From NCBI RefSeq assembly GCF_035083965.1, contig NC_089725.1, positions 32,181,524-32,245,523 of the forward strand: a stretch of 64,000 nt of DNA, written 5' to 3'. Source of the DNA: Branchiostoma lanceolatum (taxonomy: Eukaryota; Chordata; Leptocardii; Amphioxiformes; Branchiostomatidae). The notes beneath the pieces were generated by a model, which was not told where the DNA came from, searched no databases, and worked only from the letters and a program-made list of their open reading frames with translations. Both the position numbers and the translations under genes were made by a program. This document shows, piece after piece, positions 7,901 through 64,000 of the stretch; position 1 is the stretch's first letter, and each line of letters starts with the position of its first letter.

Positions 7901-10900
7901 GGTAACCTTGGGCGTGACGTCTGCCCTTGGCTTTGTCCCTCCCAATTTTGAATCACAGACTCCATGTGGCGCAAAAGAAAACAACCTTTTATGAAATAGA
8001 ACCCCGCCCAACTGACAGACACAGTTACACAGGAAACCCCAATTCATGGACAAGTTTGGGCAATTCAGGACAAGTTATCGCTTGTTAGAGAAATCAAAAT
8101 ATACTCGTGTGTCCTATTTGCGGATGTTATGTCTTATTTCTGGCAGTTCATCCCAGAAATCTGGGCTAATTTTGTCGCTTGTTTGCCTCAAATAAAGAGA
8201 AGTACCCAGGAGGGAGGACAGCGGGGCTGTTTATAGGAGACTCGTGCCAAGAGTAGAGCCAACAGCCTGAGGGGGAGAATGGTTTGAATCTTCAGGATTC
8301 TCTCGCTAAGTCTTGCCACGAGCCGGCGTCACATTCCAGTACTCCACAGCTTCATCTGAGAGTACTCTAAATCTTGAAATGTTCACGGTGCTTTCACTGC
8401 AAAGTCATGACACAGCAAATATGTGCATCTAATGTACTACCGAATTTTTCAGACTGCAAAACACAGCGAAAACCTTAAGTTTCTCCTCATACTGCAAAAT
8501 CAAGTACATGCTTTTTTTCTAAATCCGAGAACCAAAAGTCAAATTGATGTGGCCTCAGTGCACCTGTTGAACACCTGCAGATAAAAGTGACCCACCTGCA
8601 GATGGAAAGTGAAAGTGACCCCCTGCAGAAGAAAGTGAAAGTGACCCACCTTCTGCTCCTGCTTGTCCAGTTTCCTCCACCCCCGTATGGCCAGCTGGAA
8701 CAGCCCGGCCTCCCCCTCCTCCGAGTTCTCCTCCTGCAGAGACGACCGCTCCTGCTCAAACCACAGGTCGAACCCCTTCACTACCCTGAACAAACAAACA
8801 AACAAACAAACACATGGAGTAAACACAAACCACAGGTTGAACCCCTTCACTACCCTGAACAAACAAACAAACAAACAAACACATGGAGTAAACACAAACC
8901 ACAGGTCGAACCCCTTCACTACCCTGGACAAACAAACAAACAAACAAACACATGGAGTAAACACAAACCACAGGTCGAACCCCTTCACTACCCTGAACAA
9001 ACAAACAAACAAACAAACACATGGAGTAAACACAAACCACAGGTCGAACCCCTTCACTACCCTGGACAAACAAACAAACAAACAAACACATGGAGTAAAC
9101 ACAAACCACAGGTCGAACCCCTTCACTACCCTGAACAAACAAACAAACAAACAAACACATGGAGTAAACACAAACCACAGGTCGAACCCCTTCACTACCC
9201 TGAACAAACAAACAAACAAACAAACACATGAAGTAAACACAAACCACAGGTCGAACCCCTTCACTACCCGGAACAAACAAACAAACAAACAAACACATGA
9301 AGTAAACACAAAACAAATACGATAAACAAAAACTAACAGGTCGAACCCCATCACAATACTAGGAGTCGTAAATTGTTCATGTGTCTAAAAAAAAATCGAA
9401 ATCCCTCCCACACCTTTTGGTGTACAGAGACAGTGCCCATCTCCGTTTCTATAGCACTTGGGCCACACAGGCCATCACAAGGCCCAAACAATGAATGGCG
9501 AACTTAAAATGCATTTAATTTGTAACCCTTACAACAATCTTTGACATCATCAGGTGCAAACATTTGGCTGACCAGCAACAAGTGTCATTTACGTTACTGT
9601 ACTGTGATTTTCTTTGTACTGATGATATTGTCTTTGAGTCTCACAGTCCCAAGAAGTTAGATCCGTCAGTCCTTAGCGTAAGAATCCTACTGACTTCTTG
9701 TTTTCTTCCTGGCCCTCTGAAGACGTCTTGGACTGGTTCTCAGGCTCCTGCCTCCTGGGCTTCTTGGCAGCCATCAGTAGGGTGCTCTGGGTCTGAAATA
9801 ACAGGACAGAGATGGAGTCTATATCAGTGCATCACTCTAAATTACAGTCAAAACTGTCCAAGAAGACCACTCAGGAAACAAATAAAATCTGTTCTACATG
9901 TATGTGGACAGGTGGTCACTTTCAATAGGATCTTAAAGGCTTGTGTCAATGGAGAAATACTATCTAAGAGAGAACCAAAGGGTGACATTGGCCGGGCGGA
10001 AACCTGTACAGGTTTGGCTGAAAAAAATTTAGAAAGAGAACAAGACAGCCGTGAGGAAAACTTGAATCCACTGAGTGAGGATAAATTGAGCTGCAAATCT
10101 GATACTTTCTTGCTTGCAAAGTAGTTTGTTTGGAGGTGGAAAGTGTCACTGATTGCCAAACCATGACATCATACAAGATTCTGTCCAAACTTCAGTATGA
10201 TAGTGACAAAGCAGACGGTATGGGGGTTTAGCACGGCCCTATCACACAGGTTAGAGAAAATTAACCCAGTTCAGTGACTGTGCCGTTTGTGGACAGCCCG
10301 ATGTGACGTCCAGTTCACACCACTCCAAATCTTTGACAGAACACACAAACAATATGAGTATGATGGTTGAAGCATGAAGTACAAAGAGGGACTGAGGGTG
10401 CAGAGTCCCTGTTACACATGTTAGAGAAAATAAACCCAATTTTCATCCAGAGCAGGTTCTCTGAGGGTCAGACAGCAGGCTTGTCTGACAGTGACTGTGC
10501 CGTTTGTGGACAGCCTGATGTGACGTCCAGTTGAGTCGACTCCAAACCACTACAGCATTATACACAAGGCAGAGAAGATTAACCCAGTTCTTATAAAAAG
10601 CAGGTTCTTTGTGGGTCAGAAGGCTTGCCTGACAGTGACTGTGCCGTTTGTGGACAGCCTGATGTGACGTCCAGTTGACACCACTGCAAACCACTGACAG
10701 AGCGACACAAACAGACATGACAGAAGCCGACATCCACCTGTTTTAAATGTCTAAACTGGACGTTTTCCCAGTCAAGTCAAAGCTGTCCGAGGTTCTCTTA
10801 GTACTTTAGTACTACTTTTGCATGTGCTATCTTTCTATAAAAGCCGTCATCCACCTCTCTTCAATGTCCTAACTGGACGTTTTCCTGGACCTTGTCGGAG

Positions 10901-13900
10901 GTTCTCTTGGTACTACTTTTGTATGTGCTGTCATTCTATATAAGGATTTATCAACTTTTGTACAAAGTGCTTGTCAATGTCACTGTTTGAATTAGAACCT
11001 ATTGTTTCTTGATTATATGTATAACGAGTGTGTATATATACACACAAGTACACATATACACCTCATGTATGTATACATATACATACACCTCATGTACATT
11101 TTGTATGTATATATGTCATGTACATACTATTAGACTTCTGTTAAGTCTAAATTTCAATAAGTTCTGATTCAAACAGGGGTTCAGAAAAGGAGATGAAAGT
11201 ATCTGACTGTTACCCCTGTCTAGATACATTGTGCTGATGTGACATACATACACCACATGGGCTTCTCACAGTGCCTCATGAACCCTAACATCCAAGACTA
11301 ACAAGAGACACAAACTCAAGTGACAGAACTTCAACAACGTTCACCTGTTTCCAGACATCCAACTGGAAGGTTTCCCAGTCGGTCCTTCCCACGTGTTTCT
11401 AAAGATAAACCAAACTCTACAACTGCCTACAAGATATGGACTTCCAGACGTTTGGAGTGACATCCATCACTCTTCCTCAGCGTCACTATGATGAACTGGT
11501 AGGACAAGTCTGTACTAGTACATCTAACTGGAAGAACTGGTAGAACATGATAAAGTTGCTAACTCGTAATTCTCGTTGTACTAGTTTTTACTTTAGATGT
11601 CACTCGAAACGTCCGGAAGTAATCTCCGTACCTTATCCAATTGTAGAGATTGTCCATAAATATTGTTCACCTGGATGGCTAACCTTCTTCAATGTATAAT
11701 CACATCTACATGTGCTTCATTGGCATCATACTGTGTTAGATGTACCTTGTTTATCATTATCACTTCACCCCAATTATAGAGTAAGCATTACATTGCCTTG
11801 TCCTGTTGTAAATTGTGCTATGATACAAAGTTGAAATAATCACGCTGTGGTTTTCTTAGCCTATTTAGTGAACCCTCTAAGTTGTTGTTGTACGTACAGA
11901 TTGTTTCTTGGAGGTGGCCGACGTCTTGCTGGCAGCCTTCTGGTCACCTCGTGGACTCAGCGCTGAAAATAGAGGCAGAGTGGCGGGTAAATACTTGCTT
12001 AAGTCGAAAAGGAAACATCATCAAATTCTTAACTTCACAACACAGGCCAGGACTCCAGTTGAACGGATGAAGCAACAAACCACCTGTGTGAACTCGGGTG
12101 AACTGAACAAGCACAACTGTGTAGTAGGCCCCCTTTCAACTAGACGGCAATCGCTGAGCAACCATTGGGCGATTAGAATTGGATTTATGTAACCCTTGCT
12201 TTTATGACTGGAATATGAATATGACAGTAAAACGCAAAAGACGTAAATGTTCTTTTTCAGTAAAATTTGTTGAGCCATCTCTCAAATTTTTGTTCACTCA
12301 GCAGTTGTTGCCTCTAGTGAAGGGGGCGTAGCAGAGCAGACGGTCAGGTCCCGGACACAGCCCTGAGCCCGATAGCCCAGTTCCCTGCCCCAGTCCTGTC
12401 TCAGCCTACCGCCCAGGTGACACACTGACATCAGTAAAACTGACACGAGTAAGTCAGAGGTGTTTGTTGATGTTCCTGGCTCTCATCCTGCTGTCTAATC
12501 TAAAACACATCCAACCTGTAACAGACTCACAACAACACACTTTCTGTCTTAGGCAAAACCAATTTGACTTGTATACATGTATATACATTATATACTATAT
12601 TTCTCTGTTTAATTTTCAATGTAGCTCTTGATTCAGACGGATCCAAAAATGGAGATGAAAGAACCCCCTGTCTTGATGCATTGTGATTAATATGTAACAT
12701 ACATACACCACATGGGCTTCTCACACTGTAACACAGTAATAGACCCACAACAACAACAGTACACTTTCGGTCCTAGGCAAAAATAATTGAGTTGTCGGTT
12801 ATCAGATCTTCAAATATAAAGCTGAACTGAAAAATCAACATGAAAGCAGAATCAGGAGGGAAGTCTGTACCTTGGTACACACAGTTTTAGGGAGTGAACA
12901 TAGATTAAACTTTAGCACACGAGCAATCATTTTGCCATCAATTCTCTATTGGTTACAGAGTTAGGCAGCAGGGACAAGGTTAAGGTTTTTCCTCCCAACT
13001 CTCTCTTTTCATATTGACCTTTTACTGAATATTTACTTAAGAAATGTACGAGTACCAAGAGATGTAGACTTGACAGAAAAGGGATGCCCACACGGAGCCT
13101 GCTACTCTGAATAAAGTGTGCCAAAAACACACACATGGATTTGGTGGGCCAAAGTGCCAACATCTGCACATTTGCCGCCAAGAACCATAAAACAAAAAGT
13201 GATGCTGTCTCGGGCACAATACTTTCCCATGTCTTCCCCTGGACTATTAACCTGGCAATCTTATCAGAACTTTATATTCTCTCTTTTTTTAAAGTGATGT
13301 AGCCTTTAAATAGGCATTCTACTTTGCCATGTCTTTCCCAGGACTATCTTCCTGGCAATCTTATCAGAACTTTATATATATATATATATTTTAAAGTGAT
13401 GTAGCCTTAGGCATGGTACTTTCCCATGTCTTCCCCAGGACTATCTTCCTGGCAATCTTATCAGAACTTTATATAAATATATATTTTTTAAAGCGATGTA
13501 CCCCTAGGCATGATACTTTCCCATGTCTTTTCCAGGACTATCAGGTTGAGAATCTTATCAGAACTAACCCGTGAATAGCCCAGTATCAGGCCAGGCCTTA
13601 TGAAACAGATTACCTTGGCACCACTTAAGAGAAGTCTCCTTTCCCACAAACTTATCAGGGCATAATAGGTGTTGTTTTTCTGCGATAACAGAATCGCTGG
13701 AATTCCTTGCAGCTTTGAAAGCACTTTTTTGACAGCGACCTGTCCTCGGTGGACAAGTGCTGGACCTGGAAGGGGGAAGGGGACCCAAATTTTCCTGACA
13801 AGTGTCACAGACCTACCTACTTTTAACTTGGAGCAAGAACTGGCAAGGAACCAGTGTCACCCAGGGCGTCTTGACTTGCGATCAGGACAGACATGATTTA

Positions 13901-17902: not shown

Positions 17903-20900
17903 CTGGTAACACAACCGTTCACAGGTCAGGGGCAGGTCAAAGGGTAGGGTCGGGTCAAAGGTTGAGAGTCGGGTCAAAGGTTGAGGGTCAGGTCAAAGGT
18001 TAGGTTAAAGGTTGAGGGCTGGGTCAAAAGTTGAGGGTCTGTTCAAAGGTTGGAGTTTGGTTTAATGGCAGAGGGATGGTTAAAAAGCTCAGGGTCGGTT
18101 CAAAGGTTATGGGTTGGTTCAAAATTTGAGGGTTGGTTCAAAGGTTGAGGTCAATTTAAAATTTAGGCATGGTTCAAAGGTTGAGGGTTGGGTCAAATGT
18201 TCAATTTCAACCCCAAATATTCCCATTATCAGTTCTATCATCATTGCATTCTTGTTTTCCTGCTGCCAACTCTACATAAGGGAAAACAAAAGCCTAAGCT
18301 GTGGAGACTGAAAAGCTACATAAAGACAACGAAAGAAGACTCACAGCGAAGAGCTTCATGAGCGTGTCGTCCTGTTCCCGCTGCACGTCCGCACGCGCGA
18401 GGTCGTCAACCTCCCACCCCTGCACACTCAGGAACTGGAAATGCCCGCTGAACAAGCGGCTTCGGATGAAGCTTTCCTGTAGGGTACAAACAAAGTAGAA
18501 GCATGAGTCTGATCATAGGTAATTTCTATTAATTTTAAAGACTCGCTTGTCATTGATGAAACATTGATAAAGAAAAACACAGGGGTGCGTACCAAAGAAA
18601 CAATGTTAACTACTAGTTTCTGTTTTCACAAAGTTTCAGCAAAAGGTAGAGCACCTCCATGAAAAAAAAAAGTTGTAGCCTTTACCTCTAGCTAGCGCTT
18701 GTTTATGAAAATCAGTGAGCTAAAGAGCACAGGCTCAGTATTTCGAGCCCTGCTATTGCAAGGATGTGAAAGAACTACCGTATTTCTTCTAATAAAGGAC
18801 GCACTTTTCTGACATTTCAACCTGCAAGATGAGGCTTCAGGTCAAAGCCAAAGTCGGGGTGCGCACTTTATTTAGGTTTTCTCTCGAGAAAAGTCGCGAA
18901 ATAAGTCAGGAAGTCAGCGTTACCCCAGCAGGCTGGCCGCGTCGCCGACGAGCAACGATAATCTATGCATGTTCTGTTCTTATTCATGTTCTTATGTTTA
19001 CAAGATAACGATGCTACATCATACGTATATTTTTGAAAAAGTGTGTTAGATATAAAAATAATCGATTTAGTGATAAATATTAAATTACGAGACACCTAAT
19101 AACGCTGGGTGTTTTCAACCCGCGCGACTATTTCAGTGTGTCGGGCCGGCCATAATTTCGTACCCCACGCCGCTTGTACTAAGACGCTTGCGACGTCAAT
19201 AATTTCCTAACCACCCACACGGCTGCAAATATGGGCACATCGTGCGTATCTGTAGATATTATTTATCAAAAACGTAATACAGTCAAACCTGTCTATAGCG
19301 GTCACTCAAGGGACTGGCCAAAACTGGCCGCTAAGGACAGGTGGCCGCTATGGAGAAAATGTCGATTAATTGGCCACGAGTGACACATATTTTCAGTACC
19401 CACTGAGATACATTTATTCACCGTACAGTACACATGTAAACAGGTAAGGCACATTTTAGAAGTTCGATTGTTGTTCTTTTACTCCTAGTTAGTTAAGAAC
19501 AAAATACATGTTGCTCAGTTGTCACTTACTGTTCGTTTTCGACCGTTTTCAAACATAAAATCGTGGCTACAATTTTCCTCAGTCTCTTGTTGTGGCTTGT
19601 GTTGATCAGCATCTACCATTATGCTAATAGGGTACTCAGAAGAAGGTCGCTCTTTTGAGGGCTTTTTGTCTTTTCAGAAAATTGCAACAGCCCAAATTTT
19701 ACATCATAGTAGTATTAACTACATTCATTTTGAAGCTTTTGGTTTAGTAATTATCCTCAGTGATACTTTGCAGCAAAATAAATTTAGTATATTATACCTC
19801 CGTAATAGTGGTGTCTTCCGTTGACCTTTATGCTGCTACCTATCCAGTTTGTATCAGCGCCATTTTGAAAATTGCGCGAAACACGTTTTGAGCACAATTT
19901 GAATGAATTCCCGGTGGAAACGGAAATTGGGCCGGCATTCAAACATTTCACGAACTTACCGCATCAGGTACATGTGTGGGTTGTATTTTCCAAAAGGCTG
20001 CCGTAATATTTGTCCAGTCGAAATGCACAGAAATTGTCAATTTTACCACGATGTACAAACGCAAGCCATGTGAAGAAAACTATACTTGACTTCGCGTCAA
20101 ACCATGGATTTTCTAACAAAGATAAAACATTCTGGTTTTCTTTATTATGATCCTATCCAGTTGAGGCGGCATAAATTTGATAACTGCGTGAAAAAATGAA
20201 GATTTTGAACCCGGCGTGCGGTGGCGATGCGGCTTCTACCGGCGCGCCGTGACCGTTATCGGCAGTGTTACTGTACTCGCGGGACCGAAAATCGTCTGGC
20301 CGCGACCGCGTTGGACAGGTGGCCGCTATAGCCTAATTCTTAATGCTTATGTCAATGGGAAAAATCCAAGGGACCGACAAAAAGTGACCACTATGGGCAG
20401 GTGGCCGCTATGCAAAGGTGACCGCTAATACAGGTTTGACTGTAGCTAGAATCTGAAATGTTCCAGAGTTCGCTTCAGCGGGAGTTTTGTTTTTGTTTTG
20501 ACGGATAAAACGCGAAAACCCACGCCGCTTTCGGCATACTTCCGGGTTCATTGATCGCTAAAATTACGCAAAAGCCACCATCAATCGGCAAATAAATGTA
20601 TGCTTTCCCGAAAACATCTTTTGGTTTTGCATTTTCTTCACCATAATGTTGCTATGTAGTCGATAAAACCGCGTTTTTATTGCGTTTTCATGTGTAACAT
20701 TTCAGACAAAGAAAAAACTTAGACCGCGATTCTGCTGCCCCATGATGCACTTCCAAGGCTTTTGATAGGGTTAACCATTGGACCCTATTTAAAAAACTCC
20801 TTGACAGAAAGGTCCCGGTGTATTTGGTGAGGTTTCTGGTTTATTGGTACCAGAACCAAACAATGTGTATTAGATGGAACAATGTTTTGTCTCCCTGCTT

Positions 20901-23900
20901 TTATGTATCAAATGGGGTAAGGCAAGGGAGTCTGCTATCCCCGCTACTATTCAATGTATATATAGATGATTTAAGCTCGAGACTCAGTTGTACTAAAGTA
21001 GGTTGCTATATAGGAGGCTGTCTTGTGAACCATCTTTTTTACGCTGACGACATGTGTTTGTTATGTCCTAGCCTTAAGTCTCTGCAAAAACTTGTAAGTA
21101 CTTGTGAGGACTTTGGTTTAGAAAATGATGTATTATTCAATGTAAACAAGACATGCTGCATGTACTTCCCGAGTGCTAGTTTGCCACTTTTACATCCGCT
21201 CCCGTCGATCAAACTGTATGGAGAGTGTCTGAGATTTGTGACATCATTTGTATATCTTGGAATTGCTATTAATGACAGACTGAGTGAAGATGACTGTATC
21301 CTTGCCCAACTAAGGGGCCTGTATTGTCGAGCAAATACTATAATTCGAAAATTTTGTCTTTGTTCACCTACTATTAAGAAAACACTATTCACGTCTCACT
21401 GCTCCCAACTCTTTGGGGCGCAGTTATGGAATTCTTTTCGCTCGAGAGTTCTGTCGAAATGTCGAATTGCCTACAACAATTGTTTCCGTATAATTATGAG
21501 TTTCCCAAGATCTTGCAGCGCAAGTGAAATGTTCGTGTGCAATCATACCGATACCTTCGACGCCAGATGGCGTAAACAGTGCCACTCCTTTGTACATAGG
21601 ATTTTCAATTCTAGTAATGCCATTATACAGTCCGTACTTAGGTCCGACTCTTTTTACAAGAACTCATTTTTCACCAACCTATGGAGCCGCCTCTACACAT
21701 AGCCATAATATTGTTAGTTTGTCTCAAAATGTTGTATATAAGCTTTGTTCTTCATGTTTGTCCCTATGTCATATGGGCCAGTGAGAGCCTGAAATAAAGA
21801 AATAATAATAATAACTTCGTCTGCAATATTCCCGCCTTCAGCTGCAGCAGCAACCAATCAGAGACGCGCAATGCGATCATGTGATGAGGATTACGTAACA
21901 CGCGAAATGCATCTTGGGGCAGCAGGATTTAAACAATATGGCGGCGGGCGACGGCGAAATGAAATGATTTGTCAATGCAACGCTGTATTTTGCGGCATAA
22001 ATGCCGAGAGACGAACTTTTATTTTATCTCAAAATGCGTTTTACACGTTTGTCTTTGACTAGCCCGGTAGAAATCAAGCGGATCGTCGTCTGGTCCTTCA
22101 ATATCAAGGGAGTTTGTCAGATATCTTGGCGCGAGGTTCTCAGCGTGACGTTTAAACTTCAAAACTTTTTACTCAAAATTTGAGCGGAGTAGAGGGTTAA
22201 GTGTTGACCCCAAATAATGGTAATGTTTTCCCGAAAATTCCTTGAAAATGGAACGATTAAGAAAGACACCAGGACTTCATAGCGTGCCGAATACCGGGGC
22301 GTGGTCACATCTTGGAGACACGCGCCGAGCGACCGGCGGCAGATCGGGGGTGCGCACTTTATTAAGGTTTTTCTGTGAAGTATCTCAGCTGGCGTGATTG
22401 GGGTTGCGGTGAGGCCCAAATCGGGGGTGCGCACTTTATTTGGGGTGCGTCCTTTATTAGAAGAAATACGGTAGCAAGAAAGATCCTCCTGTTTTCATGT
22501 ATCTCCAAAGAAGAAGCTGCACAGGTAGAGCATCTCCCAGACAAAGAAGAAGCCTCACCTCCAGCTGGCTCTTGTCGGTGTTCAGCTCGCACAGCGGCAG
22601 CTGGAAGGGCAGCACGGTGACGGCGGGGCGCGGCAGCACGGGGGGGAACGTCGAGCCTTTACACGGGATGCACCTGGTACAAGTGGGGAAGAAAAACATT
22701 CTTTAATCACAACCAGGGCTATCTACCACCTAAAAGTAAAAATCGTACATGAGTGCAAAATGAACTCTATCTAATGGTTAGTAAATGCAGTTCAGAGAGT
22801 AGATGCAGTTCTTGTGAGCTCTGATAGGTGTCACATATTCCTTAATACAATATGTCAAGAACAATCCTTACACTCCCTACTACAAGCACATGGAAAGACT
22901 AGTACCTGAGCTGTTGTGGGTTCTGGTTGACTCCAACCAGCCAGTAGTTGTCTGATTTACCCTTGCACTGTGTGGAGAGGTAAATAAATAGGAAATGAAC
23001 ACAAGATATTGCACACATAAAACATTCCAGTGCTAAGTAAGAAATTACAACCTGAGTGCCATCCTATTTAGCTATCCCAAATGAGTATGGTAAACTTTGA
23101 CACCTATGCTAACAAATAAAGGGCAGTCATCTAAAATCTACACTGTCATTTGTAAGTTAAAATAAAACATTTGAAATGAAAGTCTTTGGTTGCCAGAGAC
23201 CAGTCAATGGCAAGGAAAGGAGAGGAATTTCAAGAGAATTTCTTTTCTTAAGAAGAGAAAGTTGTTCTTCCTACGTGAGTTCTTGTGTTAGCGATGGGAG
23301 TCCAGCTGCAGCCCAGACCCCTGTTCATCATCCGCACCACTCCGCACGAGTCATAGGTCACCGGCGTGCCCTCCGCACTGAACCTGCAGGACAGGGGACA
23401 TGGGTTTACTCACACATACACAAGGGGGTGCAGATTTCAACTTCTGCTGGTCACACGCACACGTGTACTATGCATGCATGCACACACAACACCCTGGCAC
23501 ATACAAACACACAAACCACACTTATTTGTACAAAGTTACACGCATATACATTTCGTATACACACAGGGGCATGCTTAGCACTAAGTTTTCAGTGTTACTA
23601 TTAAAATTTGTTAATTGCTTCTCTATATCTATTACAGAATAGAATTCAAGTACAGTAGAAGTAGGCAAGGGTCTGTGAATGCAAGACTTCTGTGTGACTG
23701 GGCCTTTGCCATAGTATAGAGAGCTTGATCTTACCCTATCCATGTGAGCGTGGCCTTGGTGCTGATGGGGAGATGCCCCTCCAGCACCTTTCTCCTCCTC
23801 CTGCCGACAACCTCCAGCAGCTGGGCGCCTAGCAACTGGTCTCCTGGGATACCTGGACACAAGGGATGAAGAACACGATTCTCTACATTTTCACACTTTT

Positions 23901-26900
23901 CCACATATTGGAAGTCACACCCTCAAAGATGCTGCTTGAACACATCACTAATGGATTTTCTCAATAAACTCAACTCAACTCTATATTCTGTTGTTATTAT
24001 TTCTGTCCTCTAGGGAGGCAACATTTGTCACTTTGTCAATTTCAAATCACACAAGAGAAACATGGCGCTGTTATCAGGTATGTTATCAGGAATCCTGCTG
24101 CCAAACATGGCCATGGGGCAACCAAAAGACAGAAAACAAAAACACCTGAGCCCATGTAGCACCTCAAAAAATCTGATCTGATTTTTGTCATGCTTTAAAA
24201 TCTTGTTGCCAAACTCACTCACTCACTCAGTCATTTTGTTGCCAAACTGTGCTCATGTTACCACCCAAAAAAGCAAACAAATGATTTAGAACAAATAAAT
24301 TAACAACCAAACCCACCTGTGCCCATGTGGTACACCACCAGCAGCTGTGTCCCGTAGGCTGCCATGGAAACCACCGGCCCGGGCACGCTGATCACGTCCT
24401 TCTGTATCCCGGCAACCGTCCAAACACGCACCAGCCTCCTGTCTGTAGCCACGGCAACCCAGCCCTGACCAATGGCAAGCACCTGGGGGGAGGCAGTCAT
24501 CAATGTTAAAGACCACAAAGAAATTCTCTCAGAGAAGAACAAGAAAAAAATCAAGCCATGCTTTCAAGCACCAGAGTTATCAAACCAGGATTGATGTATT
24601 AAAAAATTTGTTCTTCTCTGGAACTATGAACGGAATTCAATGCCACCAAGTACAGCAGGGGCATCCTGACTAGATAGCTTTATAGACCTTTCTCACGCGG
24701 CGGCCATGATAGAATGAAAACGAGGCCCTTGTGGCAAACATTAGACCGATCCTAACTGTCAATCACAATTACCAGTTTAGCCAATGATTACCTGATAATG
24801 AGAGAATCAACCAATGAGGAAGTCGCTGCATGACGGTCAAATATTTGCATTTCTATGTTTTTATTTTGCATTTCTACGTTCTGACAGAGGAGGGTGGAGA
24901 CTATGGGATCGGTCAACGAAGCTCTAAATTGCTGCATCTTTTTTGTACCTTACATTAGTTGTAATATTGATGATTGGCTATCATATTTTAAAACTTAATG
25001 TGATTTAGGAGGAAAACTAAATCTGTACATTATTTTTGCTTCTTTGCCTCACTGGCCTCATCTTCATTCTATCATGTCCGCCGCATGAGAAAGGTGTATT
25101 GGTTGGTTTATTGGTTTATACAGTGGTTTAAACAGTGCTTACAGTCAGATCATTCTGCAAAAGTAAGGAGTGACAGGTCCTTCAGAGCAACATAACTAGC
25201 TGCTGCCGCGCCAGGTGCTTGCGAAGCTGGTGTGTTACGCCGAAGGTTGTGTTATACTGGCTGTACAGATCCAGGGAAGAAGGGAGAGTCGACCATGATT
25301 TGACCTTCAGATGACCCACCTGTATGTCCTCCCCATCCGTCATGGCCGTGGTCCACTCCTTGGAGTTGTCCCAGGAGGAGAAGTGCAGACAAACCAGCTT
25401 ACTGCAGGATTCAGAAATAAATCATTATAGAAACAAAAAATAAAAGGTAATAGACTAAGTCTTTTTGAGGGTGTAGGGGCACTTGGATTGTTATCCACTG
25501 TGTCTAGGGCACGGTATTGAGAAGTGGAGCCGAACCCTCTTTAACACAGCCTTTTACCTCCCCGACCATGCCAGCTGGCAGATTTGATCATGAGCTTCAA
25601 ATGATGAATAAACAACGCCTCATAAAAAAAAACAGTCCTACCTCGGTGCGTCGTCTATCCCCTCGCAGGCCAGCAGTGCGGCCTGGTCTGACAGGGCGGC
25701 GAGCGTGTGGTTGAGGTGGTTGGTGACGTGCATGGAGTGGTGCCCTGCCCTGCCCTGCCCTAAACCTACCCTACCCTACCCTACCCTACCCTACCCTACC
25801 CTACCCTACCCTACCTACTTACCCTACCCACCAACCCTACCCTCCCTACCCTACCCTACCTACCCTACCTACCCTACCCTACCCTACCCTACCCTACCCT
25901 ACCCTACCTACCCTACCCACCCACCCTACCCTACCCTACCCACCCTACCCTACCCTACCCCACCCTACCCTCCCCTACCTCGGTGCGTCATCGGTACTCT
26001 CGCAGGCCAGCAGTGCGGCCTGGTCGGACAGGGCGGCGAGGGTGTGGTTGAGGTGGTTGGTGACGTGCATGGATGCGTGCCCTACCCTAAACCTACCCTA
26101 CCCTACCCTACCCTAACCCAGTCCTACCTCGGTGCATCGTCTGTGGCCTCACAGGCGAGCAGTGCTGCCTGGTCAGACAGGGCGGCGAGCGTGTGGTTGA
26201 GGTGATTGGTGACGTGCATGGAGTGGTGCACGGACGTGTCGTGGAACTCGATGTCGATGGAGTTCTCCTCCTCGCTGCTGTAGCACTTCACCACGCCCAC
26301 CGAGTTCCACACCTGGCAGGGAGGAAAAAGTAAGACAATTTGACTCACAAAGCAACAACAGGAATCATGTAATTGAAATAAATAACTCGCAAAAGATGCA
26401 CATTTATCATTGTGGAACTCAACAAGCAGCCCTGGTTTGTTCTTTTAAATACTGGATAAGACGAGAAGTTATGAATGCTTTTCAAGACTTTTCTTGTACT
26501 ACTTTCAAGACTTTATTTTCGTGCAAGACTGGGGGGCCTGGTGTATTGGATTGGGGGTACCTGGGTTAGTGTATTGGCAATAACTACCCACCATGAACCT
26601 GTGAGCCAGGCTGACTGGAGTAGACCAAGGCTGGAAGGCTGACTGGGTTAGTGCCTGGGTTACTACCTGCAGGCTGCAGGGGGGTCGGTTTGGGACCCTG
26701 GGCCAGTGTCTGGGTTAGTCCGTGGGTTATTACTGAAGTGCTGCACCCACCATAAACCTGTGCGCCAGGCTGACTGGAGTAGACCCCGGCTGGAAGGCCG
26801 GCTGCAGGGGGGTGGGTTTGGGACCCTGGTACACCGGCTGGGGGGGTGCCCGGGAGGGGAGTCCTGAGATGCTGTCCACATCGTCCAGTAGCTCGGACGC

Positions 26901-29900
26901 TGGCTTCATGGATACACTGTCTGCACCTGGATAACACAGGACAACAGTCACTTTATCATAGATTTGGAAAGAAATTGCGGATCTGGAATTGTGTATACAA
27001 AGTGCATCACAATTCCTTGTTGAATGCATAGTTAAACTATCAAGTTTCATGTCAATCAAGGGAGCATACTTCACTGTGAAGAAGATTTCTGTCACAGGTT
27101 TTATTGTAACTGAATATACATGTATGACTTAAAAAGTTATCAGATTGTCCAAATAGAAAGTCTTTCCAAATTCAAATAACAGATATCACAGCGAATTTGA
27201 AAAACAGATCTGTATATTTCTGACGAAATCGATAAAATCAGTTATCATATGCTGTGAGAGCTAGTAGAAGTCATAGCATGTACCTATCAACATCTGCTAA
27301 ATCTGCGAGCTAAACAATCTGAAGTCGATCTACTACCTGCACAATTTCTTACCCATAGAAGCATCGTCATCATCAAAAATGTTGGCCTTTCCACGCTTCC
27401 TCTGTGTCGGCACCGGCATAGAGTCATCATCATCTGGGTCTCCGGGGGCGTTGCTATGGGAACCGTTGTCATGGTCACCAGCCGACAGCAGGAAATCATC
27501 ATCGTCTCCGTCAAACATGGCTGCCATGGGGTCGTCCGCTGCCTCCGACTGCTAAAAGGGGGAAAATAAATTAAAGTCAATCTTCTTTCTTGTGCTGGTT
27601 AGACAACATTACAGCACAGATAAATCCATCCTATTTATTGGTTTGAGTACAGTGCAGCAAAACAAAATGTTTGAATTGACAACTGCTAATGTTTAGAAAG
27701 TCTGTTTCACCTGTTTGTTTGATGACTCTGGGGCGACATTCTCCACCAACCCCACCTGGCCCTACAGAAATGTGAGAAAAAGGAAGAAAGTCAATCGTCA
27801 CAAAAGTAATTCATAAACACATTACAACCTTACTGTACTAAAGCTTGTCTACACTTTCTTTTAGCAAAAGGTGTTGGTTCCAATATCTCTCATCCACACA
27901 GCAAAACTCACAAATCAGAACAACATTCTTTAGTTTTCTTGTCTTTAGGATGTCAGAGACTATCCTATCCATACACCAAGGGCTAGTGCAGGAGAGTAAC
28001 AGTACTAGTGTAACCTTTCTTCTTTCTTGAAAACATGTGTTGATTCTAAGACTGTCCTATCCATACACCAAGGGCTACACGACCGTGACTGTAAGACCAT
28101 GACAATTACCTGTACATCTGTGTAGGCGATCTCCGTGCCGTTTGCAGGGTTCCAGACCAGCCCACAGATGGTCAGACTCTTGTCGTGTTTCACCCTGGGG
28201 AGGGGCAGGCAAAAAACAGTTGTTATAAACAATTGATACAAACAGTTGTTACAAACTGTTGTCACAAACAGATGCAACTGTTGCAAACACCACAAGAGTC
28301 GAGACTAAAGTCTGTTCATAGATAGAAGACAGGTGAGTTCTACAGGTCATATCAGGGGAGAGTCAAAGGTCATCATCTGTACTCAGGCGCTTGCTGAGTA
28401 CAGTGTTATTACTTGGGGTGAGTTGTTGCTTCTAGCCTATCCATGTGTCTGTCTGTCTGTGTCTGAAATTCCCAATGTACAGAATGTAAGAATGCTGTCA
28501 CTGATTGCCTTGATGCAGTGTATTACCCCTGACAAGGTAACTTGTAAGGAAGATACGTTGCTTGGTTTCCTACTTTGTAAACATGGAAAAAGTATCATTA
28601 TCTCCCTTGTGGCTACAATTCCAAGTTCAGGACAAAATCCCGGGACTGAAGCATTATGTCCAGCCTCTTACCTCTCCACGCAGTTCTTGCTGGACACGTC
28701 CCACACCAGTATGCTGCCGTCCACACAGGCTCCGGCCAACAGAACGCCGTTCGGAGACCATGCTACCAGGGAGATGGGCTGAAACAAGGACAGACCCTCT
28801 TATGTTGGGAACATTGACAGAAACTTTTTTTCCAAAAGGAACAGGCCTATAGATATATGAAACATTCCAATCTACTTTTCTCTAGCCTTCTAGCCTATGA
28901 CAGTCAATTTTATTTCATAAACCCACTAAAAATCTTGAGAGTCAAAAAATTAGTTTTATATTGTATTTAAGGACAGGAAGTCATGGCCCCCATTGCCAGT
29001 GTGTACCTGTTCTATCGACTCGTCTGTTAGAGTGAAGACCTTCTCCCAGGTGTCCTTAGCAAACACCTGGACCTCCTTCTCCACAGGTACAGCCAGGTAC
29101 TGCAGGGTGCAGAAAGAAAGGAAGGTTATGATAACAGCAGTATAACGTCTGTCATAAACAACCCTGTGGGTACATGCATTACAACAATAAGTATGTGTCA
29201 GTCAAACCTGTACAAGTGTCCATCACTTTTTGGTGGTCCCTTAGATAATTTCCCCATTGACACAAACATCAAGAATCCTGTCTATAGTGAACCCCTGTAC
29301 TTTTATTGGTCAGAAATTACCCGCAATGGCTGGCTTTCTAGCGCTGAATTGATGCAGGGTTTCACAGGTTTCATATAATACACAACATATAATATCTTAT
29401 CCACACTTGCATTATGTGGAATTGTCGCAAGGGTCTGGGCAGCTGCCATTCGGCGCCACCAGGTGACCTCGATACGACCTTCCCCAACCGAAGTCAGGTA
29501 CCCATTTACACCTGGGTGGAGTGAGGAAAGTTGTGTAAAGTGCCTTTCCCAAGGGCACAAGATCGGTGACATGACAGGATTCGAACTCGGGACCTCTTGG
29601 TTCTGAGCCGAACGCTCTGCCGTTGTGCCACAAAACCCCGCTGTACACTTAGACTAGACCTTAGTGTCTTCTTGGGCAGGTTTGACTGTACCACAAATGT
29701 GGAAAAGTACTAATCATCTATGGAAGATACATTGCATACAAAAAAATCCTATCTGTGACATGATTAAGGTCTGAACTTTTGATCCAACACAGATTTATTG
29801 TAAGACTGCCCTTACCTTGCCAGTTCCAGGTTGCCATGACAACCTGCACAGCGTCTTGGCCACGCTGACATCGCTGCACTTGGGGAGGAGGGTCCAGCTT

Positions 29901-32410: not shown

Positions 32411-32455
<45 letters not shown>

Positions 32456-42238: not shown

Positions 42239-42439
42239 GGAACAAGTGACATTGGGTCATGTGACCGTGAGAAAGATGTTTTCATTACATAAATCTCTAC
42301 ATATGCATGTTTCTACGTTAAAGAATATACACATGCATACAAGTACTCACTATATACTCTATACATACTGAATTTGTGTCGAATTTTAAGGATTGAGATG
42401 TGTAAATGTACGCTTATGCAATAAATGCCCTGGGGCCAA

Positions 42440-42837: not shown

Positions 42838-42885
42838 TTCTCGGTGTTTAAGCGGAACCGACACAGTAATACCAGGAACCCGGCC

Positions 42886-47216: not shown

Positions 47217-47266
<50 letters not shown>

Positions 47267-56590: not shown

Positions 56591-59500
56591 CTACTTCTGG
56601 ACCGGCATGGCGACGGCGGCCCGGGTGTGCGACACATCCGACTCCTTCCACAGCGACGTGACCGTCTTTATCTGCGTGTAGAACTGGATCCCCTGCAGGA
56701 ACAGCAACACAAGTGTCTAATTAGCAACAACACAAGTGTCTAGTTAGAATATCCACTCGACTAGAGAGGGGTGTGATCACCAGTAGTGGACTGAAACTCT
56801 TTTGGACATGATTGTGGGGAAGAGGGCCACCGTGGATGCCACGGACGTGGTTAGCAAGTGAATTTTTCTTGAGCCAGCGGTCACTACGGAGGCTGGTACT
56901 CAGGCTAGATGCCAGAGCCATTACTCTTCTAACAATGTATCACCTGAAGAAGTCTCAATAAGCCTTATTTCTACTAAAGATGGAACGACAGCTGATCAAA
57001 TAAACAATGAGTAATTATGGACAAGACTTACTTTTTGTAAAATTTGAAGGAATTGCGAATTTGAAGGAATTGCGACAAGAATGATTTCAAAAGCTGAATC
57101 CTGACTGTTCTACATTCCAGGCAATACAGGGAGGTTGCCATGTATAGGAGGTTGCTATGGCTACAAGGTTACTGTGGTTACAAGGTTGCTATGAGTACGA
57201 GGTTGCCATGGCTACGTACCGCCTTGCCATAGAAGTTGGTGTCCCCCCTGAAGGATCCGCGGGATCCTGTGAAGGAGAACATGGGGAGGGGCACTGGGAT
57301 GGGCACGTTCACTCCAACCTGGGGGGGGGGGGGGGAATGGATAGGACCTTTATTATACAACAGCCATACTTAACAGTCCGAGTTTATATTGATACAGTAT
57401 GTGATCAGGAGTAGTGCTCAGTTCAATAGACAAATCTCATATTCAACAGATGTACTAGGCATGGGAATGGGGGGTTATACTAGCATTATGGTTATGGTTA
57501 CTGTAAAATGGTAACAGCAACATCATAATATTATGTTTTCACTTTCAGCAATACACCGAGCAGGACAGCACGTTGTTTGACAGAATCATACATATGCTTC
57601 AATACTGTACTGATAGAAACATTGATGAACGGTTTCTGTTGACAACTCGACAGAATGCTTATTAAAACAAAACAGAAAAACACTTGGCGAGAGAATCTCA
57701 AATAAAGGATGGTGCTGATCAGCAGATGTCAATGCCACATTATTATTAGAACTTGCAATAAACTTTCATTATTTTCTTTTTTCCAGAGCTAAATATTTGG
57801 TTTTATGGTATGGTTTACATGTCTAAGACATAAAAAGTATATACTTAGTGTAGATCTATGTCGGCACAGTGCCTGTAGATCGGTATTTGGACCATATACA
57901 CAGTGCCGCATCGGTACGCAACACTACTGTTAATCAAACAAACTCACCTGTCCGACGTCCACAGCCTGAGTGAACTTGCGCGCCGTGGCGCCGTTGGTCG
58001 TGAAGATGGCGGTGCCGTTGCCGTAGGGGTTAGAGTTGATGACCTCCAGGGCGTCGTCAAGGGTGTCGACCTCCATGGAGACCAGCACAGGGCCGAAAAT
58101 CTCCTCCTCGTAACATTTCATGTTCGGCTGGAAAAATTAATGACAGTCAAATTCGAAACTGTATCAGTAAAGTCTGCTCATTACACTCTACTCAGTACTG
58201 ACTCTTTGGTGTTCTAATCTCCTCGTAACACTTCATCTTTGGCTGGTGTTGGGAAAAGGAGACATGAAAAATTAATGACAGTCAAATTCGAAACTGTCTT
58301 CTCAACATCAGGAAAGTCCACTCATCACATTTTCTACTGAGTCTTTTGATGTTCTTTGCGAATTCTGACTGTGAAATTCTTATCTCCTCCTAACACTTCA
58401 TGTTTGGCTGGAGGCGGGCAAAGGAGACAAGAAAAATTACTGATAGCCATTTCAACTGGTATTGAAAGACCGTTCCTTAAATTTTCTACTGAGTTTTTGA
58501 AGTTCTTTAGAAACTCTGACAATTCACTTCTGGTATGTGACATTTGGGAGTGGGTCAGAGGTGCTCATGTCATCAGACGCCTGTATCTTCGTGGAGAGGT
58601 TTTGGTTGAATATTTTTTTCCAAAACAGTGCAAATAACCATTTGTTGCAGGAAACAAAATTCTTTGCTTTTCATCTTTTGGTGTGCTTCTTCAGCAAGTC
58701 CAATGGCCTCTAAACATAACATGAAATTTGAAATGCGAGTGGCCTTGCTGCATTGTTCTTCTCAATGCTCATGGGCAGTTATCTTTGTCAAGTCAAGTCA
58801 AAGCCTTTATTTTCCTTTGAATGCTTGTTCAGCCACACGGGCCGTTTTTCAACAAAGTCGAAGTGGAGGGGCACGAGTTACAGATAAAGAGTATAAATTG
58901 TAGACTGTTAAATCACATAGGTTCTATCTTGATTTGCTGTTAAAACTTTTTAATTAAATGATTGTAACTAATAATACATGTACATGAATTTCCCCAGATA
59001 CAGCAATGAGCCCACTCACATCCACTTTGTGCAGGACGGTGGGTCCCACGAAGTTTCCGTTCTCGTAGCCGGGCACCTTGATGTCACGCCCGTCGAGCAG
59101 CAGCTCCGCGCCCTGGTCCACCCCGCTCTGCACCAGGTCACACACGCGCTGCTTCGCTTCGGGGGAGATCAGGGGACCCAGGTCTGCCCCCGGCTGGTCA
59201 CCTACACACCGGGGACACAACGTGGGTCTGTTAGCATGAAACCCTAACCCTAACCCACCCCGCTCTACACAAGGTCACACACACGCTGCTTCGCCTCGGG
59301 GGAGATTAGGGGACCCAGGTCCGCCCCCGGCTGGTCACCTACACACGGGGGACACAACGTGGGTCTGTTAGCATGAAACCTCGCTTGTGTTGGTAGTAGT
59401 ATATAGCAGGGCTGTCTCCAGCTTTAAATGTCCTTTGTCCCACTCACTGTCAGTAGGCCCATGTTGTTAATTTTTGTCGTTATATCTGTCATTTCAAGCT

Positions 59501-62500
59501 TACAAGAATACAATTTCATCAATTTCCTTCAGATTTTTTTTAACAGACAGGAAGAAATTTATTTCCGTCTCAACAAGCAAATTCTGTCCAAGGACGGAGG
59601 GATGGGTAATGGAGACAACCATGGTACAGAGTTAAAACTTTGGTTCTACACAAAAACTTGGCACATTGAATTTTTGACTGTCCTACTGCTGTGAGTCTTC
59701 CTCAGAATTCAAGTGACCAAACAACTGGATCGCTCAGGGCAATGCTAACTTGTTCTACCGCTAGGTTTAAACACTTGGTTGAGTGTAAAAAAAACTATGC
59801 TATCCAGTGATATACCAACCTGAAGAAACTATTATTCCTGAATATCGTACCAGATAATAGAAACCCTTACCAGCGTTGACCTTGAGCTGCTTGGCCCTCT
59901 CGATGAGTTCCGGGATCCACTCCCTCGCCTCACCGACAAACACGGCCGTGGAGAGCGCCATGCAGCGCTGGCCCGCCGCTCCGAACGCTGCGCCGCAAAG
60001 CTGCAGGGGAGGAAACAGCACGGTTAGAACACGGCCGTGGAGAGCGCCATGCAGCGCTGGCCCGCCGCTCCGAACGCTGCGCCGCAAAGCTGCAGGGGAG
60101 GAAACAGCACGGTTAGAACACGGCCGTGGAGAGCGCCATGCAGCGCTGGCCCGCCGCTCCGAACGCTGCGCCGCAAAGCTGCAGGGGAGGAAACAGCACG
60201 GTTAGAACACGGCCGTGGAGAGCGCCATGCAGCGCTGGCCCGCCGCTCCGAACGCTGCGCCGCAAAGCTGCAGGGGAGGAAACAGCACGGTTAGAACACG
60301 GCCGTGGAGAGCGCCATGCAGCGCTGGCCCGCCGCTCCGAACGCTGCGCCGCAAAGCTGCAGGGGAGGAAACAGCACGGTTAGAACACGGCCGTGGAGAG
60401 CGCCATGCAGCGCTGACCTTGAACCAGCTTAGCCTAAGGAACAAGGGGAGCTACACATGCATTCTTTTACTGATCGTAACAGAGAAGACAGACGCTATGT
60501 ACAGTATTTACAGCTCAATGAACGGATGAGATACTCTTGCAATGGTCGCGACAGAGAACACAGATGCTATGTACATTATTTACAGGTTCACTTTACCAAG
60601 AAAATTCCCCTAGCTCTTTTAGACATGTACAATGAACAGTGGACCCCGGCTTAGCCTAAGGATTGCAACCCTTTCCAGTAGTGTGCATGTTGGATGATTG
60701 ACAACAGCTGGGATTCAAACTGACGACCTCTATGAATGCTTTGGACTTATTAACCTTTAGCACACTGAAGAATTGTTAAGCACTCAATTCCCTATTGGTT
60801 ACAGAGTTAGGCAGCAGGTAGAAGGTTAATACTAAGTTCTGTGCGCTCCCTGCTTGAACATGATCAGGCATGGGCTCAGCCTGACGTGTGTCACAGTACA
60901 GGAGCAGGGTTTGTTCTCCCTGGCTAATACAACATCCCCCGCACGGTAGGATAGCAGGGCATGTCGGAAAACCAGGGGTTGGTGTTTGACACCAATTGCA
61001 AGATTCTGTATCGGCCATAGCTACAAACTGGGGTACCTGGGAAATGATATGGGTTGCCCAGATCTTAAATGGTGATTTCCACTAGCAGTCCTTCAAAACC
61101 ACATGTCCTATCATCTTGCGTTATGAATTTTTATATATCATGCATTAAAGACACAACTATGATAAAAACAGCGATATGACAGTATTTTAAACACAAACAA
61201 GCTATGGAAAATCCTAATTTCAGTCTAATTTGTGACAAACTTGAGCTGTTCACAAGGCGATTTTTATATATGATCTAGCTGCCTCAAACAAAACCTGGTT
61301 GCCTAGAGAGGCTGTTTGACCTTTGTGATGACCCCTGCAGCCCACTTGACGTTCCTACCTGGTTTAGTGTGTTCTCCTTGTTAGCATCCGGCATGATCAC
61401 TCCGTGGTTCTTCGCTCCCTGTCACACAAAACATCAACAACATCAACACAATCAAAAGGATTTCTTTTTCCAATTATGGCATGAACATCTTGTTGCCCAA
61501 TACTGCCAATACAAATATGATGCCAGTGGGACACCATAGTACTGTAAGTTGAAGACAGATCATTGACAATGTAATTGCTTACAAAATGTAAGTCAACATG
61601 TATGAGGGAGCTTCAGGTGTCAAACCTCTGCAAATTAAAGAACCAACACACTTATGGTGAAGAGGAGGGGTGACCCGGTGTGCTTGGCTGAAAACATGAG
61701 CTGTAGCAAATCTGCATTGCACTATAATTATAAGTCGGTACTAGCTACTTGAAAATGGATCATGCTTCACCTCAACCGAGGATGACTGCTTAACCTTGTT
61801 TTCAATAAGTTTATTTTTACCTCCTTTAATTTTTATACACTTTACAGGTGTGGCAACTTTATACAAAATTAACTGCAAAAGGAAACATGCAGAAACAGCT
61901 GACAACTCACCATGTTGGACTGAACTCTCTTCCCATTCTTGGATCCCCTTTCGTAGATGTACTGGCCCTACAGGGAGAAAACACACACACGATCTGTCAG
62001 GTTGTTGTATGATGTTGTATAGATATTCTAGTTAATCAAAGGTTGTTTTTCTTCAAGTGGGCAGTAAATGAAAAAAACACAAAAAAACTAGCCAGTTTAA
62101 ATTTGGAAAGTCATTCTCCAAATTTCTGAATTTGGAAAGACTTTTTCAAAAGTTCAGCAGCACAATATTTAAAGTCCTATTATCTCACTTTTTTACATTA
62201 TTATACATGTAAAAAACTACTTCTTAAGATCTTCTGAAGAAGCATGCTTCTTTCCACACCACTGCACCTTTCTTAAGTTCCTCACTTCGAGAGGTATAGA
62301 AGTACTTTTGTTAGACAGTCCACATTTCTAGTACATTTCCGAGCGAGTCATAGTGAAGCCGCATTGCACTATCAGCTACCCAAAAAGTATTACACTTCAA
62401 ATTCGATGAAGGAAAGAAGAACTAACTTTCCAATTTCAATCTGACCAGCTCCATCAAAAGCTCCCAAAGACAGATTTGTCAGAGACTCATCTTTCTAATG

Positions 62501-63671
62501 TCTTTCTTAATCTTAAGTAATCAAAGACAAGAGCAGTACAGTAAGTTAAGACACTCACAGCTTGGTCCGAACCGACGAAGGAGATGGCCTTGATGTCAGG
62601 GTTGTCACAGATGAAGTTCACCGCTTAAAGACAGAGAAACATTCGGTGGTAAGTGCTAAGAATCTTAAGTTTTAATTCAAAGTCAAATGATTACTTTATG
62701 TAAGATGAGTATTCCTCATTTGATTTTGAACATAAGCTAGCACCACCTCAGCCTACAGTGTGTCACAGCAAAGAAGCAGAGCAAGGACAAATAAGAGCAC
62801 CACCTAGCAACTTATAAATACAACTGCAGACAAGGTAAGTATGAATGCCGGTGCTAGTAATAAATAGTATGGGCTACATTGAAACTGATTAAAACTAAGT
62901 GCTGCATGTGTGCTCCTGGGTTGGACAACAGCAGGCATGGGGTTAGCCTGATGTGTGTCACAATACAGGAGCAGGGTTTGTTCTCCCTGGCTAATACAAC
63001 ATCCCCCGCACGGTAGGACACCACCCCTCTGCAACGGTGGACACCTGAACAGGTGGACACTAGAACAGGTGGACACTTGAGCAGGTGGACACTTGAGCAG
63101 GTGGACACCGGAACAGGTGGACACCGGAACAGGTGGACACCTGAACAGGTGGACACCTGAACAGGTGGACACTGGAACAGGTTGATGGCGAGCAGGGCAT
63201 GTCGGAAAACCAGGCTCTATCAGTATGATACTATAAGTTGTAGGCTAACTAACTGACTGTTCAGGTCATACTGATAATGGTAAAAAAAGGTTTCTGAAAT
63301 CTCACACAACACAACACAACACTGCGCAGAATACCTGGCATGGGCCCTGAACTGAGCTGTGGTTCACAAGGTATAAAAACATCCTTTTCATTTACTAAAT
63401 TAATGTACACTCAATGACTAATTAGTCATCCGTTGTGCCATTAACTGACTGATCTGACTTTTTGGTCGGCTGACTGGTTTACTGATTTATTGATTGATTG
63501 ATTGATTGGTGATTGGTTGATACCATCGTGTTGTCCGTGGATGACGTTGACGACCCCGTCAGGAAGCCCCGCCTCTGTCGCCATCTCCACGAGCATCATG
63601 GTGGCGCCGGGGTCGCGCTCCGACGGCTTCATGATGCAGGTGTTCCCGCAAACCGCCGCCATGGGGAACAT
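56591..63671 (-). CDS. ALDH6A1: ALDH6A1, methylmalonate-semialdehyde dehydrogenase (acylating), partial: last nine exons
   Basis: This mitochondrial enzyme converts methylmalonate and malonate semialdehydes to propionyl- and acetyl-CoA in valine and pyrimidine breakdown. Exons in transcript order: 63524-63671, 62559-62623, 61911-61967, 61359-61418, 59871-60000, 59020-59201, 57948-58127, 57220-57318 and 56591-56692. All phases agree and give 340 C-terminal residues of about 535; the N-terminus lies right of the window. Visible hallmarks: [48 protein letters not shown], the catalytic cysteine in [47 protein letters not shown] and [20 protein letters not shown]. It ends at TAG 56,591-56,593. Four of the nine exons are accompanied by extra copies of their 5' ends with acceptors, listed separately. 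Confidence 0.96.
57130..57219. repeat. Short minisatellite at the donor of the penultimate ALDH6A1 exon
   Basis: Five variants of AGGTTGC(T/C)ATGG(C/T)TAC, about 17-18 bp each, abut the donor (gene strand GTACGTAGCCATGGCAACC). The first unit is part of the 5' splice site context. Confidence 0.7.
58196..58412. repeat. Two diverged copies of the 5' end of ALDH6A1 exon 57,948-58,127
   Basis: CTCCTCGTAACACTTCATC with TTTGGCTGG (near 58,220) and CTCCTCCTAACACTTCATG with TTTGGCTGG (near 58,384) repeat the exon start at 58,100-58,130, including the acceptor (gene strand CCAGCC). Following intron phrases AAAAATTAATGACAGTCAAA and TTCGAAACTGT are repeated too. Divergence is higher than in the other arrays, so this is an older event. 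Confidence 0.8.
59256..59380. repeat. Partial copy of ALDH6A1 exon 59,020-59,201 with acceptor
   Basis: A direct duplication with 137-bp offset: 59,119-59,243 recurs at 59,256-59,380. It contains the first ~80 nt of the exon and its acceptor (gene strand GTGTAG then GTGACC). In the copy the exon frame reaches DLV and then TAG, where the true exon has CAG, so it cannot serve as a coding start. Confidence 0.9.
59942..60415. repeat. 89-bp minisatellite copying the catalytic-cysteine exon start of ALDH6A1
   Basis: Units start at 59,942, 60,031, 60,120, 60,209 and 60,298, with a 29-bp partial at 60,387. They are identical by eye. On the gene strand each has TTTCCTCCCCTGCAG as acceptor, then exon codons [20 protein letters not shown]. 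The copy at 59,942 is joined to the rest of the exon; in the others the frame goes on to TTC and TAA. So five splice acceptors precede one usable exon body, four of them leading to a stop. Confidence 0.95.
60781..63010. repeat. Dispersed repeat fragments in ALDH6A1 introns
   Basis: A block at about 60,840-60,990 (GGAGCAGGGTTTGTTCTCCC, TAATACAACATCCCCCGCAC) recurs at about 62,885-63,015. GGTTACAGAGTTAGGCAGCA at 60,795 also occurs at 12,951 and inverted near 7690. A different block at 61,606-61,780 (GGGGTGACCCGGTGTG) matches 45,160-45,330. These are fragments of high-copy families with no coding content that I can see. Confidence 0.65.
63030..63183. repeat. 16-bp minisatellite
   Basis: About nine units of GGTGGACACCTGAACA with small variants (CTAGAACA, TTGAGCA, CCGGAACA). 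It lies inside a dispersed repeat fragment in an ALDH6A1 intron. Confidence 0.9.
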
Positions 63672-64000
63672 CTACAGTAAACAACAACACTAACGACAAT
63701 CAACAACAAGCCACTCCATGGCTTCATTATGTAGGTGTTCCCGCAAACCGCCGCCATGGGGAACATCTACAGTAAACAACAACACTAACGACAATCAACA
63801 ACAACAAGCCACTCCATGGCTTCATTATGTAGGTGTTCCCGCAAACTGCCGCCATGGGGAACATCTGCAGTAAACAACAACACTAACGACAATCAACAAC
63901 AACAAGCCACTCCACGGCTTCATTATGTAGGTGTTCCCGCAAACCGCCGCCATGGGGAACATCTGCAGTAAACAACAACACTAACGACAATCAACAACAA
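63625..64000. repeat. 95-98-bp minisatellite copying the 5' end of an ALDH6A1 exon; continues past the window
   Basis: Units start at 63,625, 63,720, 63,818 and 63,916. On the gene strand each has a pyrimidine-rich tract, an acceptor (CTGTAG in the two left units, CTGCAG in the two right ones) and exon codons [11 protein letters not shown]. The unit at 63,625 belongs to the real exon; the others have TACATAATG where it has TGCATCATG, so they share a later ancestor. Confidence 0.92.

Follow-up and report, generated by a model that had tools for sequence, protein, structure and literature searches.

Seven amphioxus exons with tandem copies of their own splice boundaries, probably mirage-type minisatellites from ordinary tandem duplication

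How does an exon come to lie beside several copies of its own splice boundary, and does such an arrangement call for a mechanism that seeks out splice junctions? This question is raised by a stretch of 64,000 nucleotides from the amphioxus Branchiostoma lanceolatum (contig NC_089725.1, positions 32,181,524 to 32,245,523; hereafter the window), in which a preliminary description made from the sequence had reported that seven exons of the genes WDHD1 and ALDH6A1 each have one of their ends, splice site included, repeated next to them. We observed the anatomy of these arrays, the splice signals kept in them and the coding damage predicted from most of the extra copies directly. The arrays are probably boundary-spanning 'mirage'-type minisatellites that would have arisen by ordinary tandem duplication, an origin for which no junction-seeking mechanism is needed.

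Anatomy of the boundary-spanning arrays

Alignment on spliced gene models identified tandem copies of one exon end and its splice site at all seven named exons, three in WDHD1 and four in ALDH6A1. The models were guided by homology, with exon ends picked to be AG/GT and in frame. WDHD1 is complete in the window (minus strand, 32,838-4,951), with 28 exons in the model and a single stop at the end of its 1,150 residues, and residues 1-1149 match 'WD repeat and HMG-box DNA-binding protein 1' (phmmer against PDB sequences, E=0), a PDB entry that we take to be the human protein. ALDH6A1 is represented by its last nine (3') exons (63,671-56,591), which encode the C-terminal 340 residues in an unbroken reading, and residues 1-338 of this part match mitochondrial methylmalonate-semialdehyde dehydrogenase (phmmer against PDB sequences, E=2.5e-183). 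Exons are designated W for WDHD1 and A for ALDH6A1, A1 being the first ALDH6A1 exon within the window. The WDHD1 exons 12, 13 and 26 of the preliminary description had been given as numbers only and were equated with the array-bearing exons W11, W12 and W26, while its ALDH6A1 coordinates 63,524, 59,871, 59,020 and 57,948 are the 3' ends of A1, A5, A6 and A7. AG or GT is present at 37 of 37 acceptors and 36 of 36 donors used in the models (one donor from another gene); since exon ends were picked to be AG/GT, this tally is a coordinate check and not independent evidence. The least certain parts of the models are the first WDHD1 acceptor and exon W24.

Five arrays lie at acceptors (W26, A1, A5, A6 and A7) and two at donors (W11 and W12), all described here on the minus strand. 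The most regular one is at exon A5 (59871..60000; spliced model and phmmer match), where an array of identical 89-bp units (59939..60418), each with CTAAC, a pyrimidine tract and AG, comprises five copies overall, with copy junctions at 60089, 60178, 60267 and 60356. At exon A1 (63524..63671; spliced model and phmmer match), four copies with a 98-bp period (offsets 95-98) occupy 63623..64000 and continue past the window edge; alignment to the A1 acceptor places the copy junctions at 63766, 63864 and 63962, and these three copies have in common two differences from the exon. Upstream of exon A6 (59020..59201; spliced model and phmmer match) is one copy of its 3' splice site with a 137-bp period (59248..59380, junction 59338), which has an in-frame TAG in its exonic part. 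Exon A7 (57948..58127; spliced model and phmmer match) is preceded by two diverged copies (58219..58462, junctions 58242 and 58407, offsets 115 and 280).

In WDHD1, exon W26 (8650..8785; spliced model and WDHD1 match), which encodes the HMG-box region, is bordered by arrays on either side. The upstream array (8757..9315) consists of about eight copies of a 69-bp unit that joins about 29 exonic bp to the intron end; the copy junctions are at 8854, 8923, 8992, 9061, 9130, 9199 and 9268, the AG being lost at 9268. The downstream array is short (8572..8651); its donor copy, at 8595, lies in frame 54 bp beyond the real donor and shares mostly the intron side with it (2 exonic bp in the alignment). 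This donor copy was absent from the preliminary description. Exon W12 (26128..26312; spliced model) is followed by two copies of its 3' end and donor (25633..26080; first intron bases 25978 and 25641; offsets 149 and 486 bp), with a (GTAGG)n spacer between, and exon W11 (26751..26926; spliced model) by one such copy (26586..26714; first intron base 26591; offset 159) with a 31-bp insertion. The spacers between mirage units are telomere-like both after W12, where (GTAGG)n lies within 25641-26128, and before A6, where a CCCTAA/TTAGGG-like stretch occupies 59235-59262; the W12 donor itself starts with GTAGG, as in its spacer.

The array units thus span 69 to about 160 bp, with offsets of 69-159 to the nearest copies and larger ones to the second copies at A7 and W12, in agreement with what had been described. 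The view that such arrays are recurrent and very unevenly diverged also holds, from the five identical units at A5 to the diverged copies at A7 and W11. Repeats were detected with ungapped and gapped self-scans; a BLAST self-comparison gave few near-diagonal matches and missed the A5 array. Local-copy scores at the seven exons were 18-40, while in block-shuffled sequence 0.4% of sampled positions scored at least 14 and none at least 18. Because shuffled sequence never reaches their scores, the repeats of the arrays are not due to chance.

Several other candidates were set aside. The donors of W3, W14 and W24 show weak, diverged similarity downstream, with scores of 36, 34 and 30 against shuffled maxima of 25, 29 and 31; W24 stays below its shuffled maximum, W3 and W14 lie above theirs with short matches, and none of the three is claimed as an array. 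Complex repeats with 144-bp and about 101-bp periods at 10230-11400 in WDHD1 touch the uncertain small exon W24. The presumed acceptor at 49,846 of a SOCS-like gene was dropped as a mirage, the repeat there resembling a pair of copies of a transfer RNA (tRNA)-like short interspersed element (SINE), with a third core match at 7,465. These SINE-like dispersed copies are at 49369-49485 and 49730-49846, and also at 7465; their tRNA-like nature was judged by eye, and Rfam and ARAGORN do not call them. The presumed SOCS-like acceptor lies at the end of such a copy and may be a splice site at a SINE edge.

Splice signals and the choice of copy

AG was kept in 16 of 17 acceptor copies and GT in 4 of 4 donor copies (20 of 21 overall). 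With a matrix made of the window's own splice sites, the A5 copies score 12.8, equal to the real acceptor, and the A1 copies 7.6, 10.2 and 10.2 against 7.6 for the real one. The A6 copy scores 7.9 (real site 7.2), the A7 copies 6.1 and 11.1 (real site 6.1) and the W12 donor copies 9.3 and 9.5 (real site 9.5), while the W11 donor copy is identical to the real donor in nine bases. Apart from the AG-less W26 copy and the first W12 copy, every copy scores like or above its real site. Since copies and real sites score about alike, site strength can hardly be the basis on which the exon-proximal site is chosen. Most likely this choice is set by position, most simply by exon definition, in which splice sites are paired across the exon and the copy yielding the shortest exon is chosen.

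Use of the other copies would be costly in most cases. A premature stop is predicted from 13 of the 21 copies. The remaining eight, one of them without AG, are all at W26 and stay in frame; the W26 acceptor units are open in one frame and add 23 residues per 69-bp unit, and misuse of a W26 copy would therefore give only a longer protein. These open units, the kept splice signals and the silent-biased divergence described below would suit copies that function as alternative exon ends in some transcripts and are under selection. Such a role is very improbable in view of the premature stops predicted from most copies, the nonsense codons in the exonic parts of the A6 copy and of the second A7 copy, and the donor-side copies, whose repeat units by inspection lack an acceptor. 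Judging from the nonsense changes, at least the A6 copy and the second of the A7 copies are now noncoding.

In the explanation that we prefer, a short segment across one splice site would be duplicated in tandem by ordinary unequal exchange or slippage, with further amplification in some arrays (A5, W26 and A1). Because the duplication is tandem, X-Y would become X-Y-X-Y with the exon body joined to the first X (mirrored at acceptors), so that the whole exon would always survive and the spare exon-end and splice-site copies would land in the intron. The gene would remain functional if the spliceosome takes the copy joined to the exon body, the exon-proximal copy being presumably the one used, and the fate of the array would be neutral to mildly deleterious. 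No added intron is required, as models without any already yield WDHD1 in full and the ALDH6A1 part without a break. The reported pattern in which copies of 3' splice sites lie upstream and copies of 5' splice sites downstream of the exon was indeed seen, but it carries no information on mechanism, because any tandem duplication combined with a conserved protein gives it.

Placement and divergence of the arrays

The preliminary description had raised the possibility of a mechanism that favours splice junctions. Such a preference is not established, and the check proposed there, a comparison with shifted exon boundaries, gave no enrichment: 5-8 of 78 boundaries were covered against a shifted mean of 5.4-8.8 (P 0.55-0.75) in a scan whose 8-bp rule picked up five of the seven arrays and missed W11 and A7, and the same test on whole arrays gave P 0.10-0.60. 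By our reasoning rather than by simulation, long arrays raise the shifted expectation, so that the shifted test is weak there. When gaps were allowed, a score of at least 16 was reached by 8 of 78 boundaries (10.3%), compared with 11.5% of all positions, and by 6 of 72 (8.3%) after removal of six microsatellite boundaries, W12 and W26 among them; the corresponding values were 12.2% for exon interiors, to which the exonic parts of arrays contribute, and 10.5% for introns.

A second set of comparisons weighs against an origin without any junction preference. In a null model added after the first result, only the founding unit of each array was placed at random. Over 16 parameter sets, 6-8 boundary-spanning arrays were observed where 1.8-2.5 were expected (P 0.0002-0.017); the SOCS case, rejected later, is counted in the eight of these sets that have longer periods. 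For WDHD1 and ALDH6A1 only, the excess was also found without that case, both for all arrays (7 of 25 against 2.5 expected, P 0.008) and for units of at least 50 bp (7 of 14 against 2.1, P 0.0023), and it persisted in a GC-matched null with the SOCS case included (8 of 28 against 3.5, P 0.0085). The SOCS case is likewise still part of the shifted-boundary counts. Intronic arrays were closer to exons than expected within 15 bp (3 of 20 against 0.7, P 0.036) and 25 bp (4 against 1.2, P 0.029).

These results would be consistent with a mutational mechanism that favours splice junctions, for example through GC steps, R-loops or replication stress at exon edges, and the GC content of exons (60%, against 42% in the remaining transcribed regions) fits it as well. 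We nevertheless regard such a mechanism as unlikely. The shifted-boundary null shows no excess, and the nearness of intronic arrays to exons fades at 50 bp (5 of 20 against 2.3, P 0.07) and 100 bp (6 against 4.3, P 0.25). Moreover, 20 tandem arrays in the transcribed regions are intronic, compared with 8 candidates that span a boundary (among them the rejected SOCS case), and boundary arrays tend to be less diverged than the intronic ones (Mann-Whitney P 0.02), so that detection and age may differ between the two groups. The founding-event enrichment is 2-4 fold in a single window; because this window was noticed for the very feature, the excess is suggestive at most. Some junction preference may exist.

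The divergence between exons and their copies is concentrated at silent positions. In a codon-position test devised after the alignments were seen, with one copy per array and ends trimmed, differences were found at 25 of 140 third positions, 8 of 283 first and second positions and 1 of 213 aligned intronic positions; the intronic figure, which may be an underestimate, comes mostly from A1, A5, A6, A7 and W26, since the alignment at W11 and W12 covers 5-9 intronic columns, limited by the reference and by lost similarity. Without trimming, the counts were 27 of 148 third and 14 of 299 first and second positions. The trimmed differences comprise 23 silent and 10 replacement changes (23/33), whereas under neutral drift of the copy, with constraint on the exon alone, the expected silent fraction is no higher than 0.42 (P 0.0014). 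With any one array left out, P ranged over 0.0007-0.034, the weakest value being obtained without W12. Silent divergence is about 0.21 per silent site overall and about 0.38 at W12.

The simplest reading of this bias, which we offer as a lead, is that much of the divergence would have arisen while both sequences coded, that is, as alleles, which were then joined by unequal exchange. This would refine the origin step of the tandem-duplication explanation: if the exchange took place between diverged homologous chromosomes, the units would differ from birth by allelic, mostly silent, differences, and an array could be young though its exonic parts look diverged. The high silent diversity of amphioxus is in line with this, being 0.0397 in B. 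floridae (PMC12862219) and, in an excerpt of a study of the Chinese lancelet, 0.070-0.075 (PMC4284660). We consider this refinement possible but tentative, as the silent divergence of the arrays, above all at W12, exceeds the published mean diversity, the intronic parts should differ too, and the test was chosen post hoc on few arrays and short alignments. A more doubtful extension is that mirage arrays exchange with coding alleles, having been born from diverged homologues or being kept 'exchange-safe', so that the intronic copies would form an archive of past coding alleles; in the latter case, selection in a very large population would act against conversion of the exon by a damaged copy.

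Relation to known mirages and to the neighbourhood

Excerpts of published accounts describe 'mirage' minisatellites in the amphioxus globins Gb6 and Gb9 (PMC3087553) and like repeats in PGBD5, with troponin C and Adh cited alongside (PMC3902484); Adh3 is among the amphioxus mirage genes cited in these papers. The statement in the preliminary description that such repeats occur at an amphioxus Adh locus was therefore correct, and the record is wider, taking in troponin C, the globins and PGBD5. The arrays described here share with the mirages in these excerpts tandem units of about 10-160 bp over one exon-intron border at either splice site, AG/GT kept in many copies next to an intact real exon, and copies that are more alike mutually than to the real unit (here at A1). 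Unlike in the published cases, the 64-kb window has seven arrays spread over two genes, arrays flank W26 at both ends, and the divergence is silent-biased, of which the excerpts compared make no mention. The seven arrays are thus further members of the known mirage kind, and what is new is that many mirages lie close together and that their copies differ mostly at silent codon positions. According to the excerpted globin account, RT-PCR (reverse transcription PCR) and Adh3 data suggest that regular splicing is undisturbed by mirages, which are proposed to be possibly more general among cephalochordates and to offer a way of gaining introns (PMC3087553). Literature searches limited to open-licence texts found no genome-wide mirage survey.

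Two other systems are related. As far as the excerpts on it go, a potato gene shows a border-crossing tandem duplication with a branch site, pyrimidine tract and 3' splice site, as here; unlike the intron gain there, no new intron has formed here, and the extra copies are intronic in the model. The introns of amphioxus VCBP3 hold partial exon copies with splice sites (PMC2632668), and in the excerpted description these exon pieces with canonical splice sites resemble adjacent coding exons, as in our arrays; unlike here, complete as well as partial exons occur there, and an array structure is not described in the excerpt.

The same literature bears on a false joining of alleles or stutter in tandem during assembly. 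Amphioxus is highly heterozygous, a mis-assembled mirage in a genome draft is on record in the globin excerpt (PMC3087553), and assembly errors are mentioned along with tandem repeats in the draft in excerpts of two further papers (PMC2206037, PMC2632668). Such an artefact would hardly account for seven arrays with unlike units and internal variants and is quite improbable here; trace data allowed the mirage of the globin to be reconstructed (PMC3087553), and resequencing is said to speak against assembly error at PGBD5 (PMC3902484), again in excerpts.

Other features of the window lie apart from the arrays. Three tRNA-Met genes fall within 1 kb at 1205-2157 (two on the plus and one on the minus strand), both plus-strand copies being in a duplicated stretch. 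A 318-amino-acid open frame at 20746-21699 (plus strand), reverse-transcriptase-like by eye, lies within a WDHD1 intron, and a 599-amino-acid open frame without introns at 37683-39479 (plus strand) was judged by eye to be a trypsin-like protease. On the minus strand, 40921-42256 contains enoyl-CoA hydratase-like exon fragments, presumably of ECHS1, with the middle apparently missing. The SOCS-like gene mentioned above is SOCS4/5-like by eye (42838-50556, plus strand) and lies near WDHD1; the two are presumably neighbours in vertebrates also.

That two genes in a single window contain seven mirages suggests that boundary-spanning arrays may be common in the genome rather than rare curiosities. 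They offer natural experiments on splice-site choice, with up to seven successive acceptors that have intact AG and similar scores and differ in little but position, and they provide raw material from which introns can be gained. Should the silent bias of their divergence prove robust, they would in addition document allelic exchange in a highly polymorphic animal.

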